Source of the DNA: Methylophaga sp.
Lineage (GTDB): Bacteria > Pseudomonadota > Gammaproteobacteria > Nitrosococcales > Methylophagaceae
Assembly (NCBI GenBank): GCA_002706095.1
Contig: PAJP01000001.1
Span: 62,001-126,000 of the forward strand
Length of the DNA stretch: 64,000 nt
Reading direction: 5' to 3'
In this document: positions 1 through 60,650 of the stretch, piece after piece
Numbering within the stretch: position 1 is the stretch's first letter
How the letters are laid out: each line of letters opens with the position of its first letter
Notes under the pieces: model-generated
Database searches by the model: none
What the model was told of the DNA's origin: nothing
The model's input: only the letters and a program-made list of their open reading frames with translations
Position numbers and translations under genes: made by a program

Positions 1-162
1 CTGGAAATCGTCAACTCTATCAACGGTATAGGTCAGGTACTGGGGCTTAAAACGGTCGCCGAGTTTGTTGAGGATGATACGACGCTAATCAGCTTGCAAC
101 ATATTGGTGTTGATTTTGTGCAGGGCTACCATGTGGGGCGCCCCGCACCATGGATTATTTAA
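1..162 (+). CDS. C-terminal end of an EAL-domain (c-di-GMP phosphodiesterase family) protein, cut by the window edge
   Basis: The first 53 codons are open from base 1 to a TAA at 160-162. The peptide carries the two closing signatures of EAL domains: a TVAEFVED segment (equivalent to the conserved AE-[GF]-VE loop) and DFVQGYHVGRP near the end. EAL domains hydrolyse cyclic di-GMP or, when degenerate, bind it. The catalytic EAL motif lies outside the window, so activity and any N-terminal sensor or GGDEF domain cannot be judged. The gene ends 6 bp before the stop of hrpA, which runs towards it. Confidence 0.85.
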   Translation: MEIVNSINGIGQVLGLKTVAEFVEDDTTLISLQHIGVDFVQGYHVGRPAPWII

Positions 163-51952: not shown

Positions 51953-53020
51953 TTATTTTTTCTCCCGCTGCATCAAATCTCTTACTAAAGTAAAACTGAC
52001 ATAAATAAATACAGCTGGAATTAAGCCATATATTAAAGCCAGTTCTAATGTGGTTGCGAAGTTAGCCTGAGTAACCACTAAAATCATGTACGAAACATAA
52101 GATGTATATAAAAGAAGGAATAAAAACCCCTCAAACCGGGTTAATGTGGCACCCACAAAAAATAAGGGTAAACACAGAACTGAAACAGCCAACATGACAG
52201 GTATATCTAATGTTGCCAGTTGTGGGCCCGCAATTAATGGTTCTGGTGAGATGAGTCCTGCCAGGCCAAGCACACAGAGTATATTGAAAATATTACTACC
52301 GACGACGTTACCAATTGCAATGTCTCGCTCCCCTCGTATTGTTGCCATAACTGAGGTCATAACTTCGGGTAATGACGTGCCGACGGCAACAATGGTAAGT
52401 CCAATAACGGCCTCACTAACACCTAGTCCTGTAGCAATGCTAATCGCACTTTGTACTAACCAGCGAGCACCTAATACCAGTAATATGAGGCCGACAATGA
52501 AATACAATACGCTTTTCCATGTCGATGTATTCACGGAGAGCAATTCATCGATTTCAGCTATTCCCTCTTCATCGTTTTGCTTTTTGCCTTGGATAAACAG
52601 AAAACCGGTGTAAGCAAGTAAAGCTAAAAACAAAATGGCTGATTCCCATCTCTCAAGTAATCCATTCCATACCATGACCGTCGCTATGGCAGACACAGCA
52701 ATCATAATAGGCACATCCTGTCTGATAAGCTGCTTGGAAACGAGTAATGGGGATATGAGTGCAGCCAGACCAAGAATGAATAGAATGTTAAAAATATTAC
52801 TTCCAATCACATTTGCAATAGCCAGCTCTGCCTGGCCGGACCAGGCAGATTTAACGCTGACAGCGAGTTCAGGAGCACTCGTTCCAAAGGCGACGACGGT
52901 TAAGCCAATGACTAATGGCGGCACACCAAAACTACCGGCAAGCTTGGCAGCCCCTTTTACTAGCATATCCGCTCCAAAAATGAGCAGTACTAAACCACTT
53001 AACAGCAATAGCCAGACCAT
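51953..53020 (-). CDS. calcium/sodium antiporter (CaCA family, YrbG-like)
   Basis: 355 residues with ten membrane helices in two inverted halves. The alpha repeats are both present: LTVVAFGTSAPELAVSV with IGSNIFNILFILG (first) and LTIVAVGTSLPEVMTSV with VGSNIFNILCVLG (second). These bind Na+ and Ca2+. In a marine organism it would export calcium against sodium. It starts 13 bp after the secDF stop, so it may be cotranscribed with secDF. Confidence 0.94.
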   Translation of the reverse strand: MVWLLLLSGLVLLIFGADMLVKGAAKLAGSFGVPPLVIGLTVVAFGTSAPELAVSVKSAWSGQAELAIANVIGSNIFNILFILGLAALISPLLVSKQLIRQDVPIMIAVSAIATVMVWNGLLERWESAILFLALLAYTGFLFIQGKKQNDEEGIAEIDELLSVNTSTWKSVLYFIVGLILLVLGARWLVQSAISIATGLGVSEAVIGLTIVAVGTSLPEVMTSVMATIRGERDIAIGNVVGSNIFNILCVLGLAGLISPEPLIAGPQLATLDIPVMLAVSVLCLPLFFVGATLTRFEGFLFLLLYTSYVSYMILVVTQANFATTLELALIYGLIPAVFIYVSFTLVRDLMQREKK

Positions 53021-53033
53021 AACCTAATCCTCT

Positions 53034-55550
53034 CTAGGGAATTTGAGCCAACTTCTCACGCATTTCTTCTGTAGTTGGTCTCAGCAGTGCCAAACCTTTT
53101 TGGCTTCTGCGTTGACTCAAGAAATACAAAATAGGAGCCGCAATAAATACTGATGAACTTGTACCAATCACTATGCCAAAAAGCATAGGTAAGGCAAAAC
53201 TTGAAACGGCTGACCCTCCTGCAATACCCATCGGTAAAAGTGCCAAAAATGTGGTAACAGACGTAAATACGGTCCTGGTTAATGTCGACGAAATACTCTC
53301 ATTCATCAGTTGAATAATCGGTTTGTCCGGTGTGGCCCGGATGTTTTCTCGGATCCGATCAAACACCACCACTTTGTCATTGATGGAATAACCGATAAGG
53401 GCTAACAAAGCCGCCACAGCCGTCAGATTAAATTCAACACCTGTTAACGCAAAGAAACCAATGGTTTTAGTTAAATCTAAAGCAATCGTTAATGTTGCAG
53501 CGATAGCAAAATGAGATTCAAACCGCACTGTCAGGTAGATTAACATCCCTGCCCCAGCTAACAAGATAGCCAGGATCGTGTTATCGGAGAAATTACCACT
53601 GACTTTAGGGCCTACCATATCGACTTTAGGAAAGTCAGCATCAGGCTGAATAGTCAGTACGGCTTCTTTTAAATCATTAACTTGCTGTGATGTGGTACCA
53701 GGTTCAGTTGATATCACAGGCAGTCTGACCAGAAAGTCCCCCGCCTTCCCTGTTTCCTGAATAAGGGCAGCTGATAAATGGTGATTTCCCAGCGTATTTC
53801 TGATTTGTTCAACAGATAAATCCATGACGTGAACCTCAACTAACGTGCCCCCAGTAAAATCAACGCCATATTTCAGACCGGGATTAAAGAACAACACCAC
53901 AGCAACAATAGACAAAATGGCTGACGTTGTAAGACCTGCATAACGCCCACCCAGAAAATTAATGCCCTTGTCGCTTAATTTATCTAAGAAATTGAAACCG
54001 TTGATCTTTAAAGGTTGTTTTTCTTTACCTCGAATAGACCATTCCATCAGTAATCGTGTCACGGCAACGGCAGTAAACATTGAAGTTACCAAACCGATTC
54101 CTATCGTTACAGCAAAGCCCTGAACAGGTCCTGTACCAAACATAAATAACAAACTTACCGCGATAAGCGTCGTTAAATTTGAATCCAGAATGGTGGTATA
54201 TGCTTTGTCAAAGCCCTCACGAAGCGCTTTCCAAGCCGCTTTACCTCGCTTTGATTCTTCCCTGATGCGTTCATTAATAAGAATATTGGCATCCACCGCC
54301 ATGCCAATGGTCAGGATAATACCGGCAATACCAGGTAGCGTTAGTGTTGCGCCAAGTAAACCCAGTGCACCAAAAATAAGCCCTACGTTAATAGCAAGAC
54401 CTGTACACGCGATAAGTCCCCATCTGCCATAGATTCCCAGCATGAAAATCACGACCATCGCTGCGCCTAACAGACCGGTTGTTAGCCCCATTTGTATGGC
54501 ATCGCTGCCAAGATCAGGACCAACTGTTCGCTCTTCAATCACATGTAATGGAACAGGCAAAGCCCCTGCCCTCAATAATAACGCTAAATTATTTGCCTCA
54601 GAAGTGGTGAAGTGACCACTAATCTCACCGCTTCCACCCGGTATTTCACTACGAATAACAGGGGCTGTAATGACTTTCCCATCAAGCACGATAGCGAGTG
54701 CCCGACCTACATTGTTATGAGTCATATTGCCAAATAATTTCGCCCCTTCACTATCAAGCTTGAAATTAACTACGGGTTCGCCGGTTTTCTGATTAAACCC
54801 TACCTGAGCATCACGTATATGTTTACCTTCCATGGCCACCTGAGTTTCAAGACGGTAGCGGCTATCCGTATTGATATCGGGGTAAGTCACCGTATTTTTT
54901 GTTGTATCAGTGGCTGCCCAATGAAACGTCATTTTTGCCGTGGTGCCAAGCAATTCACGAATCTTAGTAGGATCTGCCACACCCGGCATTTGAACCAGAA
55001 TATCTTGCTTACCTTGACGGGTAATACTCGGATCAACAAGTCCCGTTTCATCAAGGCGTTTTCTGACTACCTCAAGACTTTGGTTAACAACATCCGTGAC
55101 GAGTGATTCAACCCATCGTTGATCTAAGCTTATTTGAATCCCGTCAGTTTCTTTTTTGATGTCAAAACGTTTTTTGCCATCTGTTGAATTACGCGCTAAC
55201 TGACTAGCGAGTTCAATGGATTTATCGATGTCCCCGATTTTACGAATAGGTATATACAAGCCTGACTCAGAAATGACAGGACTCGCATAATAAATCCCCT
55301 GCTTTTTCAACTCGCTGGTAAGCTCAGACTGCAGTAAGTCATATTGTTTATTTAATAACTCTTTAGTGTCCGCTTCCAAAAGCAGGTGCGACCCACCTTG
55401 TAAGTCCAAGCCCATAGAAATGGTCGTGTCGGTATACCAGGCAGGCAGTTTTTTAGACAAAGAATAAGGAAGAATGTTAGGTAAACTGCACAGCAGCCCG
55501 AACACAATCAACAAACCATAAACAATGGTCCGTGAAGACAATGATTTCAT
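53034..55550 (-). CDS. secDF: fused Sec translocon accessory protein SecDF
   Basis: 838 residues: a complete SecD (residues 1 to about 500) and SecF (about 520 to 838) in one chain. SecD part: TISMGLDLQGGSHLLLE, the P1 periplasmic domain, then IILTIGMAVDANILINERIREE. SecF part: LKYGVDFTGGTLVEV and LIGYSINDKVVVFDRIREN. Twelve membrane helices are expected. SecDF uses the proton or sodium gradient to pull proteins out of SecYEG. Gammaproteobacteria usually have separate secD and secF beside yajC; the fusion and location suggest an additional copy. AGAGG precedes the ATG and can pair with the last codons of the upstream gene. Confidence 0.93.
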   Translation of the reverse strand: MKSLSSRTIVYGLLIVFGLLCSLPNILPYSLSKKLPAWYTDTTISMGLDLQGGSHLLLEADTKELLNKQYDLLQSELTSELKKQGIYYASPVISESGLYIPIRKIGDIDKSIELASQLARNSTDGKKRFDIKKETDGIQISLDQRWVESLVTDVVNQSLEVVRKRLDETGLVDPSITRQGKQDILVQMPGVADPTKIRELLGTTAKMTFHWAATDTTKNTVTYPDINTDSRYRLETQVAMEGKHIRDAQVGFNQKTGEPVVNFKLDSEGAKLFGNMTHNNVGRALAIVLDGKVITAPVIRSEIPGGSGEISGHFTTSEANNLALLLRAGALPVPLHVIEERTVGPDLGSDAIQMGLTTGLLGAAMVVIFMLGIYGRWGLIACTGLAINVGLIFGALGLLGATLTLPGIAGIILTIGMAVDANILINERIREESKRGKAAWKALREGFDKAYTTILDSNLTTLIAVSLLFMFGTGPVQGFAVTIGIGLVTSMFTAVAVTRLLMEWSIRGKEKQPLKINGFNFLDKLSDKGINFLGGRYAGLTTSAILSIVAVVLFFNPGLKYGVDFTGGTLVEVHVMDLSVEQIRNTLGNHHLSAALIQETGKAGDFLVRLPVISTEPGTTSQQVNDLKEAVLTIQPDADFPKVDMVGPKVSGNFSDNTILAILLAGAGMLIYLTVRFESHFAIAATLTIALDLTKTIGFFALTGVEFNLTAVAALLALIGYSINDKVVVFDRIRENIRATPDKPIIQLMNESISSTLTRTVFTSVTTFLALLPMGIAGGSAVSSFALPMLFGIVIGTSSSVFIAAPILYFLSQRRSQKGLALLRPTTEEMREKLAQIP

Positions 55551-55556
55551 GAAAAA

Positions 55557-55627
55557 CCTCTAACGTTTTCGAAATAAAAAAGCCCTAGCCAAAGGGCCGA
55601 TTTGTATGGACGAAACTAAGCTAGAGG
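55557..55627 (-). promoter_or_regulatory. anti-Shine-Dalgarno stem masking the secDF ribosome site
   Basis: In the mRNA, CCUCUAGC (complement of 55620-55627, in the last codons Pro-Leu-Ala of the upstream gene) can pair over eight bases (one G-U) with GUUAGAGG (complement of 55557-55564), which contains the secDF ribosome site. A second stem, GUUUCG with CGAAAAC (one bulge), extends it, enclosing the GCCCU/AGGGC hairpin. A ribosome stalled on the upstream RAPP codons would cover the CCUCUAGC strand and free the secDF site. Drawn by hand, no folding energy computed. Confidence 0.65.
55576..55598 (-). terminator. terminator-like hairpin between the arrest-peptide candidate and secDF
   Basis: On the minus strand GCCCT-TTGGCT-AGGGC is followed by TTTTTT. 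It lies 18 bp after the upstream stop and 26 bp before the secDF ATG. It may terminate some transcripts (attenuation) or be a structural part of the regulatory leader. Confidence 0.7.
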
Positions 55628-55999
55628 GGGTGCTCTCAAAGGTGGATAGAGGTAATAACGAGAAAAAGGCGTTGCTTCTGTAATGTCTTTAAATACAAAA
55701 CAGACTGAACCCCAGTTTTTCGGATGTTGATTTTGTGAGTGACAAATAGCCCACAGAGGTAAGTCAATATCAGGAAAAAACTCTTCAACAGACTGATGTT
55801 TAATTTCAGCTATTCGAAGAAAGTATCCCTGCGTATTAAATGAATCAAGATGACTGATAAGCCCGTGATTAACCTCATTGCTTGAGTCACTCTTAGCATA
55901 GGAAGCTATTGGCAGAGTCAGCAACAACAACGACAAAAAGCAGATCCCCAAAAGGGATAAGACATAGCGTTGAGTGAGAGCTGGTTCGGATTTACACAT
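55616..55999 (-). CDS. candidate RAPP-type translation-arrest peptide (secretion monitor) upstream of secDF
   Basis: 127 residues. An N-terminal signal peptide or anchor (YVLSLLGICFLSLLLLTLPIASYA, residues 12-35) is followed by a soluble stretch without known domain and an ending PPLRAPPLA-stop. R-A-P-P near the C-terminus is the stalling motif of ApdA, ApdP and ApcA, secreted arrest peptides encoded directly upstream of secDF or yidC; VemP does the same job for Vibrio secDF2. Here too secDF follows (65 bp). The motif codons overlap a sequence complementary to the secDF ribosome site. When export is slow the ribosome would stall and expose secDF. The stalling itself is inferred. Confidence 0.8.
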   Translation of the reverse strand: MCKSEPALTQRYVLSLLGICFLSLLLLTLPIASYAKSDSSNEVNHGLISHLDSFNTQGYFLRIAEIKHQSVEEFFPDIDLPLWAICHSQNQHPKNWGSVCFVFKDITEATPFSRYYLYPPLRAPPLA

Positions 56000-57200: not shown

Positions 57201-60200
57201 TTAACTGGCTGCGACTAAAGCGTTGTCATTAACTCGATCAATTAACTTAATCACTTTACTTGCAGTGGCATCATCAAATACACCAAATAATCCTTGGTCG
57301 TGCAGATAGGTAAATGGCGGTTCAAATAATAGTGATTTATCAATCACCCCATTTTTATTCAAGTAGCTGATGATGTTGTTGATAAACGTGATTTGATCTG
57401 CACGTAAATTCCCTGCCTGTATAAAATCTGCAAAATGCGCTTGTGCAGCGGCCATATCCAAACCAACGATATTACGAATGAACACGCCTAGTGGTTTATC
57501 TCCATAAGTATCTATGTAGTCTTGTTTAGTACCGAGGGATTCATCTTCAAACAAAATGCTTTCTAAGAGATGTATTTCCGTTTCGGTAATTGACTTATTG
57601 GTTTTGAGTTTTTGAATCACTAAATGATCACTGTGATTTCTTACATAAGATTCAACGCGGTCTTTGTAACTTTGTAATGCAACGTAGGTTCCGATAGGTT
57701 CGTGTACCACAATAGCACTGTGATCGAGCGTATCTTCAAATGTGGTCATCACGACTTTTTGTTGATCTTTATCGAGATACTTCATCAAGTCACGTAAAGC
57801 TAAACGAATATGATCTAAGCGATTAACATTGATGTTTTGCCAAAACACATCTGTCTGCAAATCCATTAATAACGCTTTTTGTTGCGCCACGGCAGGTATA
57901 TTTTGCTTTTTCAATAACGCGTTTGCACTGCCAGTAATACGATTAATAAAGCGATCCAGACTATGTGAGCCAGTTAATACTGCTATCTGGAAGTTCAGCA
58001 GCAGAATATCGAATCGACGTGCAAATTCATCATCATTTTTTTCTGCTAATACTAAGCTGGCAAGCTCGGTATTGATATCTAATAAATCACCTTTAGATAA
58101 ATTCTGCCATCGATGCTCATCACTGAACTCAACGACGTGACGAAGTTTTGCTTTTACAACAAAACGGTTTCTATCTAAACTTGAAATGGCTTGATGTAAT
58201 TCTTGGATATAACTTTCAGCTAATGTCCCCTGCTCTTCAGTACGTGAAATATCATCACGAATAAGCATGGCAACTTCTAATTTCGCTTCAAACACTTGTT
58301 GAATCAGGCTTTTAATAATCTTGCCTTGCTCACCATCAGGCGTGGTATCAAAAAACTCAAAGTTCTGACAGTAATCAAAAATAAGAAACTTGGTCTTATC
58401 GACACCTGGACCAAATAAATCGGGACATAATCGTGTCCCTCGTCCAATCATTTGCCAGAATTTAGTAGCTGATTTTACGGGTTTAAAAAACACCAAATTA
58501 ACGACTCGAGGAGCGTCAACACCGGTGTCCATCATATCGACTGAAACAGCAATCTGTGGATCATGTTCTTCGTAGTCATCAGCGAACGTTTCCAGCAGAC
58601 TTTGGGCTTTACTCTCATAGTTATCAATAACACGTAAAAATTTACCTGAATATTCAGGGTAGTTTTTATTAAACCGTTCTTCGATAAATACGGCATGAGC
58701 ATGGCTTTTAGCAAAAATAATACTTTTACCTAATCTATCACCGCCCTGCACTTTGATACCTGACGTCATTAAATGATCCAGCACCTTATCCACGGTGTCT
58801 GTGTTAAATAACCATTTATTTAATGCTGCACTTTCAATCTCGTCGGGAGCTTCACCTTGAGTTGGGTCACCAAACTTCTCTTCATATTCTGTCTTTTCAG
58901 CGGCTGATAATTGGTTGTAGTGAACACCTTCACGCATAAATTTTAATGGCACCGACATCGCTTTGGGTGGCACTAAAAACTTATCGGCAACGGCCTGATT
59001 CAGTTCATAAGCAAAGGTGGGGTTGTTATCTTCAATGCCAAATAAACCATAGGTGTTATGGTCAACTTCGGCTTTTGGTGTCGCGGTTAAACCAATCAAC
59101 AAAGCATCAAAATAAGCAAAAATAGACTTGTATTTCTGATACACCGAACGGTGAGCTTCATCGACAATAATCAGGTCAAAATGCCCAACACCGTAAAAAC
59201 GGTTATCCGTATCTCGCAGGCCATCAATTCGATTCATGATGGTGGGATAGGTCGAAAAAACCAAGCGGGTACCGTTATCTTCTTTTTCTTTGGTAAGATC
59301 AATAGCGGTTAAATGTGGAAGATGGATATTAAAGGCTTTCTTAGCCTGTGTAACAAGCGCATTACGATCGGCTAAAAACAAAACCCGTTTGGCCCAGTTA
59401 CACTTGGTCAACATATCGACAATCGCTGCAGCCGTTCGAGTTTTACCACTACCCGTTGCCATCACTAACAAACTTTGTCGTGCCCTGCCCTTGAGTTCAC
59501 CCTGACTATTTTCTGTGACCGTATTTTCAGCAACACGGGTAATCGCTTCAAGTTGATACGGTCGGCCAACAATGGCCTCATTTGGTTTAAATAAACGTAA
59601 GTCTTTTCGTGTCTGCCGACGCTCTATTAATAATTGCAGTTCGTCTTTCGTATAAAAGCCTTGCACTTCACGTTCGGGGTAAAAGGTGTCATCCCAAAGA
59701 TAAGTTTCAAAGCCATTACTATAAAAAATAATGGGCCGTTGCCCTTTCATCTTTTCTAAACAATTCGCATATAACTCAGCCTGATGTTTACCTTTCCGTG
59801 CGTCATGCATCGTCTTTTTGGCTTCAACGACAGCCAGCGGTAAACCATCATCACCCCAAAGCACATAATCTATATAACCCATACCAGATTTATTGGTACT
59901 GACTGGCATACCAGTAACTTCATATTCCAGATGATAACCATCTTTCAGATTATCCCAACCGGCTTCTTTCAGTGATAAATCAATGTATCGGAGGCGGGTT
60001 TCTGCTTCGGATACCAGCAACGGTATGGCTGTGTTGATATCAACAGATTGTTCACGAGAGGCTTTACGTTCAGCTAATTGCTGTTGTTCCTGTTCAATAG
60101 CTTGTTTAATGGCTGGATTATGTTGTGCTTTGTCACGTATTTGTTGTTCATTTTCACGCTTTGACTGATTCTTTGTATCGACTTCAGCTAGGGTTGTCTC

Positions 60201-60650
60201 AATGCTGGGTGGTTGAACAGTATCGGCATTTTCTCGGGGAATTAATGCCTCATCAAACAGCTGCGTATCGGGAACAGACTTACCATAATAAATAGCTAGA
60301 TGACGCATAAAGCGAAACAGGTATTTCAGTGAGGCTAAAGCATCCTGTTGGCTGACAGACTTGCCATGGGCAGCGAGATTACCTGTTTTGCGAATCAGAT
60401 TAAGTTCATTAAATAAGGTATTGTTAAATAAAGCTTTAAAACCATGCTCATGCATTAATGTGCTTAAGTCAGTACGCCAGGGGCGGCTTAAGGCGCGTTC
60501 ATGGTCATACAGCCAATTAATGGCATTTTCTAAGCTGGAGCGGCAAAAAATAGCCGAGGCTTTAGGCGATAAAAAAGTGAATTGTTCAGCTTCAACCGCA
60601 TCGGCATATAAAGCCGGAAAATCGCGTTGTAAAAACTGAAAGTTGCTCAC
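57201..60650 (-). CDS. hsdR: type I restriction enzyme R subunit (HsdR, EcoEI-like)
   Basis: 1149 residues. N-terminal DUF4145 (residues 1-125: FTFLSPKASAIFCRSSLENAINWLYDHE). Nuclease motif D...ExK in MGYIDYVLWGDDGLPLAVVEAKK near 258-280. Helicase: MATGSGKTRTAAAIVDM near 396, IVDEAHRSVYQ near 488, LTATP, MIGRGTRLCPD near 745; EcoEI-type C-terminus. It cuts DNA at a distance from unmethylated recognition sites after translocation. The order hsdM-hsdS-hsdR and full length indicate an intact system. Confidence 0.95.
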   Translation of the reverse strand: MSNFQFLQRDFPALYADAVEAEQFTFLSPKASAIFCRSSLENAINWLYDHERALSRPWRTDLSTLMHEHGFKALFNNTLFNELNLIRKTGNLAAHGKSVSQQDALASLKYLFRFMRHLAIYYGKSVPDTQLFDEALIPRENADTVQPPSIETTLAEVDTKNQSKRENEQQIRDKAQHNPAIKQAIEQEQQQLAERKASREQSVDINTAIPLLVSEAETRLRYIDLSLKEAGWDNLKDGYHLEYEVTGMPVSTNKSGMGYIDYVLWGDDGLPLAVVEAKKTMHDARKGKHQAELYANCLEKMKGQRPIIFYSNGFETYLWDDTFYPEREVQGFYTKDELQLLIERRQTRKDLRLFKPNEAIVGRPYQLEAITRVAENTVTENSQGELKGRARQSLLVMATGSGKTRTAAAIVDMLTKCNWAKRVLFLADRNALVTQAKKAFNIHLPHLTAIDLTKEKEDNGTRLVFSTYPTIMNRIDGLRDTDNRFYGVGHFDLIIVDEAHRSVYQKYKSIFAYFDALLIGLTATPKAEVDHNTYGLFGIEDNNPTFAYELNQAVADKFLVPPKAMSVPLKFMREGVHYNQLSAAEKTEYEEKFGDPTQGEAPDEIESAALNKWLFNTDTVDKVLDHLMTSGIKVQGGDRLGKSIIFAKSHAHAVFIEERFNKNYPEYSGKFLRVIDNYESKAQSLLETFADDYEEHDPQIAVSVDMMDTGVDAPRVVNLVFFKPVKSATKFWQMIGRGTRLCPDLFGPGVDKTKFLIFDYCQNFEFFDTTPDGEQGKIIKSLIQQVFEAKLEVAMLIRDDISRTEEQGTLAESYIQELHQAISSLDRNRFVVKAKLRHVVEFSDEHRWQNLSKGDLLDINTELASLVLAEKNDDEFARRFDILLLNFQIAVLTGSHSLDRFINRITGSANALLKKQNIPAVAQQKALLMDLQTDVFWQNINVNRLDHIRLALRDLMKYLDKDQQKVVMTTFEDTLDHSAIVVHEPIGTYVALQSYKDRVESYVRNHSDHLVIQKLKTNKSITETEIHLLESILFEDESLGTKQDYIDTYGDKPLGVFIRNIVGLDMAAAQAHFADFIQAGNLRADQITFINNIISYLNKNGVIDKSLLFEPPFTYLHDQGLFGVFDDATASKVIKLIDRVNDNALVAAS

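Follow-up and report, generated by a model that had tools for sequence, protein, structure and literature searches.

The stretch of DNA analysed here (hereafter, the window) comprises 64,000 nucleotides of a Methylophaga sp. contig. On its minus strand, an open reading frame of 127 codons (the uORF; positions 55616–55999) codes for a candidate Sec-monitoring arrest peptide that ends in YYLYPPLRAPPLA-stop, i.e., R-A-P-P-L-A, the RAPP codons being AGA GCA CCC CCT (55625–55636, minus strand; kept in relatives). A 65-nt gap separates the uORF from the putative regulated gene, secDF2 (53034–55550, minus strand), whose 838-residue product is a fused SecDF recognized by Pfam and NCBIfam (best NCBIfam match, “protein translocase subunit SecDF”) and by comparison with relatives. 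The original prediction of a 127-residue frame with this ending just upstream of secDF was therefore correct. Since a separate main secD (36% identity) is located elsewhere in the window genome (G000:C11), the window gene is considered an accessory SecDF2. A CaCA calcium/sodium antiporter gene (51953–53020, minus strand; PF01699, with TIGR00367 matched in the close relative L037) starts 13 nt past the end of secDF2 and is likely in one operon with it. In G014, a relative of the same genus, secDF is 97% identical. Judged by its relatives, the locus belongs to a gammaproteobacterial host. Upstream in the window, a large ORF (57201–60650, minus strand) resembles, by eye, the HsdR subunit of type I restriction enzymes; the upstream ORF at L037 resembles HsdS, also by eye.

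Visual inspection of the N-terminus of the uORF product reveals a hydrophobic signal-like segment with an A-X-A-like end (...TLPIASYA/KS); when the signal end is taken to lie near residue 36, ca. 88 residues separate it from the arrest site. By eye, the uORF itself is preceded by a poor-looking ribosome site, and a search for promoter-like sites on the minus strand gave none. Neither Pfam nor NCBIfam contains a family matching the peptide at E 1, a PHROG search gave one match only (E 0.31), and the sole sequence returned from a large protein database was one relative with 94% identity. A PDB search produced one weak match to an unrelated chain (E 0.058) and no ApdA or ApdP chain; VemP chains are present in the PDB, and none was among the matches up to E 10. 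Two Rfam matches were both far under gathering scores. A weak match to the peptide was observed in genome G038.

The RQH family of arrest peptides, as described in the main text of Fujiwara et al. (2024, PMC10987492), spans nine phyla and includes many RAPP-like peptides encoded upstream of secDF. Its members are small unannotated proteins specified by uORFs of secA, secDF or yidC; they carry an N-terminal signal or transmembrane segment, more than 30 residues between this segment and the arrest site, and a C-terminal RAPP-like motif conserved among homologues (PMC10987492). The window uORF agrees in gene position, size, spacing and motif conservation, and its hydrophobic stretch with the A-X-A-like end, noted by eye, may correspond to the signal. 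The member described for Alteromonas naphthalenivorans, uDF_RQH_Enterobacterales, was tested in E. coli and in vitro: its arrest induces secDF2'-lacZ by opening a stem that masks the Shine-Dalgarno (SD) sequence, loss of arrest cuts expression ca. 5.6-fold, and stem mutations relieve repression (PMC10987492). Like the window peptide, whose N-terminus is signal-like by eye, it is encoded by a small signal-bearing uORF located before secDF2 of a gammaproteobacterium (PMC10987492) and has a C-terminal R-[A/G]-P-P (RGPP versus RAPP in the window; the two are likened by description). An SD-masking stem is also predicted in the window. Judging from sequence and analogy, the window peptide very probably belongs to this published kind of Sec-monitoring arrest peptides. 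Because the same arrangement has been shown experimentally in Alteromonas, the kind is already known, and the novelty that the original prediction saw in a gammaproteobacterial host was overstated. As far as main texts go, the finding is new in the genus Methylophaga: neither Methylophaga nor Marinobacter appears in the main texts of PMC10987492, PMC12992588 and PMC7897499, nor does Nitrosococcales in that of PMC10987492, and, since these observations cover main texts only, the loci may already be listed in supplements.

Several other arrest peptides can be compared with the window. SecM of E. coli, whose arrest at the related RAGP opens an SD-masking stem, is similar in this respect but controls secA and not secDF. 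The arrest sequence of VemP differs and is not known to contain RAPP, and Vibrio secD2 and secF2 are separate genes, whereas secDF2 of the window is fused. VemP monitors Sec and controls the accessory secD2/F2, as proposed for the window peptide, and is Na+-linked: the account in PMC11470409 gives Vibrio SecD1/F1 as Na+-driven and the VemP-controlled SecD2/F2 as putatively H+-driven. The SecM arrest motif, FxxxxWIxxxxGIRAGP, is longer (PMC10987492). ApdA and ApdP share with the window peptide a RAPP near the C-terminus and a position upstream of secDF2; they stall with RAP at the P site and Pro in the A site, and an equivalent P site is predicted in the window (PMC7897499; PMC10951233, which presents RAP/P stall structures). 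Their hosts, as reported there, are Actinobacteria (ApdA) and Alphaproteobacteria (ApdP), whereas the window host is, by its relatives, gammaproteobacterial and thus not of the ApdP group. RAPP alone is reported as insufficient for stalling (PMC7897499) and as under-represented in proteomes (PMC12992588).

A SecDF2 search returned 51 entries that could be oriented, the window among them. In all 45 gammaproteobacterial secDF2 entries (39 distinct loci, with six entries repeating the same contig), the upstream ORF has a RAPP-like end. The hosts of this first set include Methylophaga, Marinobacter, Pseudidiomarina, Gilvimarinus, Halopseudomonas, Nitrincola, Marinimicrobium, Marinobacterium, Cellvibrio, a Pseudomonas and others, and the motif is RAPP or RGPP except for RAAP at one locus. 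L009, which carries an in-frame stop and failed the filter, was left out of the first motif set. The upstream ORFs of the six other secDF loci of this search, five alphaproteobacterial (L066–L069 and L071, with an upstream ORF that is YajC-like by eye) and one from Chloroflexota (L074), have no RAPP-like end. In a later set, the motif was present at 31 of 32 loci: 30 were recovered by a filter that allowed RAPP-like variants, including RDPP (L090), QAPP (L095) and HAPP (L097 and L098), and one (L087), in which RAPP sits 13 residues ahead of the ORF end, was recognized by eye; four of the 32 (L096, L100, L102 and L103) repeat first-set peptides (L056, L058, L060 and L061, respectively). No RAPP-like ORF end was found near secDF2 at L101. 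The conservation of R/A/P/P in homologues, which had been proposed as a check, thus holds. In Methylophaga sp. OBS3 (L049), RAAP replaces RAPP and the stem considered below is kept (p 0.030), a possible natural loss or change of arrest.

The 37 distinct anchored ends, which were picked by motif, all have R and the last P; 35 have A and the other 2 G, and the first P is found in 36. Ahead of RAPP, Y or F occupies position −6 in 25 ends and P occupies −3 in 26, while the remainder varies. Comparison of profiles from which the motif region had been removed still linked the window and Marinobacter groups (89%, E 2e-6) and the Marinobacter group to the Halopseudomonas-like group (95%) and other Methylophaga (77%); values did not exceed 5% for the window group compared directly with the Halopseudomonas-like or other Methylophaga groups, or for all groups against five loci of one further genus. 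After the signal, Marinobacter uORFs share, with exceptions, the element G-F-[VI]-x3-D-x6-H-x-E-S-x-R, whose first half appears in the window uORF as G-L-I-x3-D, with a later L-R (all by eye). This post-signal element of Marinobacter and related uORFs may be a site recognized by the translocon or by SecDF.

The original prediction also held that mRNA bases of the motif region are complementary to the secDF ribosome site. Indeed, CCTCTAGC (55627–55620) and GTTAGAGG (55564–55557) form 8 bp, one of them G-U, with a duplex energy of −14.0 kcal/mol (z −3.85, p 0.006 compared with 500 dinucleotide shuffles). According to the RQH toeprints reported in PMC10987492, the P site holds the third motif residue, which makes CCC at 55630–55628 the predicted P-site codon of the window. 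Counting from this codon as P+1, the anti-SD strand CCUCUAGC (55620–55627, minus strand), which consists of the second Pro, Leu and Ala codons, extends from P+4 to P+11 and, as had been claimed, would be covered by the stalled ribosome. Its partner by folding and duplex prediction is the secDF2 SD strand GUUAGAGG (55557–55564, minus strand).

Folding of the window locus agreed with this picture in part. In folds begun one codon ahead of the motif, the SD core AGAGG is fully paired; when 60 nt upstream are included, a second complementary copy at 55653–55647 takes the SD, even with the ribosome on RAPP. The window stem is therefore not simply “open when stalled”, since the upstream CCUCUA copy can capture the SD where neither trailing ribosomes nor geometry stand in its way. 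The calculated probability of an unpaired SD was 0.16 in the free RNA, 0.56 with the ribosome and 0.42 with a control block, and codon choice for the stem is not significant at this locus alone (p 0.10). By eye, there are two such additional ACCUCUA/CCTCTA copies on the minus strand complementary to the secDF2 ribosome site, one in the Y-L-Y codons just behind the stalled ribosome (55653–55647) and one just ahead of the uORF start (56014–56007); they may act as decoys or compete for pairing.

The loop of the SD stem houses a terminator-like hairpin followed by a T-run (55581–55598, minus strand; folding and terminator scan), which raises the question of transcription attenuation, with the stalled ribosome deciding whether the hairpin at 55598–55581 and its T-run terminate transcription before secDF2. 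There are four terminator-like sites in the region, counting both strands, versus 0.8 expected, and in longer folds CUCUAGCU is able to pair with the 3′ arm of the hairpin. By the same longer folds, however, the stall would free the hairpin and lower secDF2 expression, which is opposite to the published feedback; moreover, the close relative L008 has an interrupted T-run and, by eye, no comparable T-run exists in the Marinobacter leaders compared, whereas SD pairing is general across loci. On the grounds of fold direction and the L008 and Marinobacter sequences, we rejected the terminator as a general switch and regard attenuation as very improbable.

Complementarity to the SD was examined across loci by comparing up to 30 nt from P+1 with the 20 nt before secDF2, using 500 dinucleotide shuffles. 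L037 and L063 (secDF2 broken or start not found), L076 and L077 (peptides repeating L065 and L062) and L087 and L101 (not passed by the later-set filter) were left out of these tests, and L042 and L046 (peptide identical to L040) were left out of the leader comparison. The P+1..P+30–SD duplex reached p<0.05 at 27 of 36 first-set loci (median z −2.9) and at 19 of 30 later-set loci (median z −2.5), or 15 of 26 without the four repeats, all of which pass and are counted in the 19/30 and in the total of 66; because the loci are related, their p-values are not independent and are inflated when pooled. Twenty of the 66 loci missed the 0.05 level (9/36 and 11/30). L096 reaches significance only when a doubtful secDF start is used, four codons upstream of the one taken for L056; L096 repeats L056, which fails the test.

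When 20-nt windows were slid along the leaders, the mean z was −2.25 at P+1..20 and −1.73 at P+11..30 (66 loci each) and stayed between −0.21 and +0.26 in the remaining windows (66 loci upstream; 60 falling to 16 downstream). Complementarity to the SD is thus confined to ca. 30 nt that begin with the predicted P-site codon; it is centred on the predicted P site, in the stretch that a RAPP-stalled ribosome would occupy, where the anti-SD strand of the window also lies. The paired strand slides between lineages over motif codons, following codons and the stop codon and stays near the predicted P site: it consists of the motif and the next codon in Nitrincola lacisaponensis and of the end of the last codon, the stop codon and nucleotides beyond in Marinobacter. 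Best duplexes, which were sought only in P+1..P+30, touch the stop codon in 57/66 loci and have at least five pairs within P+1..P+17 in 63/66.

Compensatory changes in the stem, another proposed check, were found. Among 19 distinct in-register loci, a subgroup picked for the register of the best duplex (secDF −7 is paired with the nucleotide directly following the stop), 15 cells were changed on both sides yet paired, versus 7.95 in shuffles, a count reached by 5 of 2000 shuffles. The in-register paired fraction was 0.818 (shuffle mean 0.776, best shuffle 0.823), compared with 0.37–0.49 in slid registers. Codon choice favours the stem by a mean of −2.75 kcal/mol relative to synonymous versions, with p<0.05 in 11/66 loci. 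A ribosome block over P+1..P+16 raised the mean probability of an unpaired SD from 0.166 to 0.371 at 62 distinct loci, with an increase in 51 and no rise in 11, while a control block over P+21..36 gave 0.208 (61 loci). Of the arrest-dependent SD exposure shown for the Alteromonas member (PMC10987492), the stem and its overlap with the predicted footprint are seen here in silico, with the upstream CCUCUA copy as a complication in the window.

The uORF could instead encode an ordinary secreted protein, RAPP and the stem being a coincidence or a matter of simple translational coupling with no regulated arrest. Such SD-masking stems are known in translational coupling without arrest peptides, and the arrest is here read from the sequence. 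The motif is, however, the main conserved part of otherwise divergent peptides, and in leaders of differing length the complementarity still centres on the predicted P site; we therefore consider the ordinary-protein explanation improbable.

The secDF2 unit has a patchy distribution: it was found in 3 of 369 genomes of the class, the window's own included, and in 15 of 63 of the order, while the two orders that provided the later set had matches at E 1e-200 in 30 of 390 and 5 of 394 genomes. In G427, which is of the same species as the window, a secDF2 search that scored 15 of 30 candidates yielded no match at E 1e-200, and in place of an orthologue of the linked CaCA gene there is only a 41% identical paralogue; for this reason, the secDF2–CaCA unit looks accessory. 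In Methylophaga aminisulfidivorans (L009/L037), secDF2 contains an in-frame TAA and the upstream RAPP ORF is intact, which may reflect a pseudogene or a sequencing error; no full-length secDF2 ORF was obtained from L063 (Marinobacter ELB17). The patchiness, the G427 genome and the M. aminisulfidivorans stop codon would all be in line with the uORF and secDF2 being left over from a mobile unit and playing no present part in the window strain. Against this, the window secDF2 has an uninterrupted frame of 838 codons and is 97% identical to the copy in G022, likewise free of in-frame stops; we regard a remnant as most improbable.

We therefore return to an arrest peptide. In all likelihood, the uORF product is a secretion monitor that stalls at RAPP when export is slow and turns on secDF2, and the reading of the locus as a secretion-responsive switch is supported. 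The stall and the regulation are inferred from anatomy, comparison and the Alteromonas precedent as described in PMC10987492. During active secretion, pull on the nascent chain would release the stall, so that the ribosome would reach the stop codon and leave; CCUCUAGC would then pair with GUUAGAGG, and secDF2 and the antiporter gene behind it would stay off. When secretion is weak, the ribosome would stay on RAPP and keep CCUCUAGC in its mRNA channel, leaving the SD free and allowing SecDF2 to be made.

The next same-strand gene after secDF2 is repeatedly a cation antiporter or exporter of one of several unrelated families, CaCA, NhaD, CPA1 (K+/H+) or TerC/Alx (the window, L038, L039, L048, L064, L070, L072, L075, L088, L089, L091, L093–L095 and L115–L117). 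CaCA follows secDF2 in Methylophaga; NhaD follows with a 4-nt overlap in Marinobacter HL-58 and M. denitrificans, and TerC/Alx after 15 nt in M. caseinilyticus; and CPA1 is found 28 nt downstream in Halopseudomonas, 46 and 72 nt in two further gammaproteobacteria and 142 nt in G386. Among first-set representatives, an antiporter or exporter is next in 8 of 28 (L037, L052, L038, L039, L048, L064, L070 and L075), the other 20 having a different gene, a gene on the opposite strand or none close. In the later set, CaCA or CPA1 lies downstream within 364 nt at 9 of 30 loci (eight named by NCBIfam, with L089 outside the NCBIfam scan). By tblastn, an antiporter or exporter was located near 38 of 87 secDF2 entries versus 0 of 24 main or other secDF loci; the 38/87 includes repeats, query loci, a SecDF2 fragment (L022) and four CaCA genes upstream of the uORF (L040, L042, L046 and L086), and flank lengths differ. 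No description of a secDF2–antiporter link was found in the literature searched, which was judged mostly from listings.

The succession of secDF2 and unrelated antiporter families suggests an ion-balance trigger for the switch. SecDF is driven by H+ or Na+, and one can tentatively imagine the RAPP peptide as a sensor of ion-motive force or ion balance, through which one event turns on a second SecDF and a cation antiporter. Loss of the gradient used by the main SecDF would slow export of the peptide and stall the ribosome; the stall would turn on the second SecDF, which might use a different coupling ion, and the antiporter would be co-induced through translational coupling. Different lineages would then have plugged CaCA, NhaD, K+/H+ CPA1 and TerC behind the same switch.

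These results extend RAPP-type Sec monitoring to a patchy gammaproteobacterial secDF2 unit represented by nearly 70 comparable loci. Relative to earlier work, the RNA signature is sharper, and we found no description of the operon association. The signature is quantitative, complementarity to the ribosome site being limited to the footprint of the stalled ribosome and sliding in register by lineage, and could serve to find arrest-peptide switches whose motif is unknown. The recurrent joining to cation antiporters offers a direct and testable answer to the question of what such switches sense.
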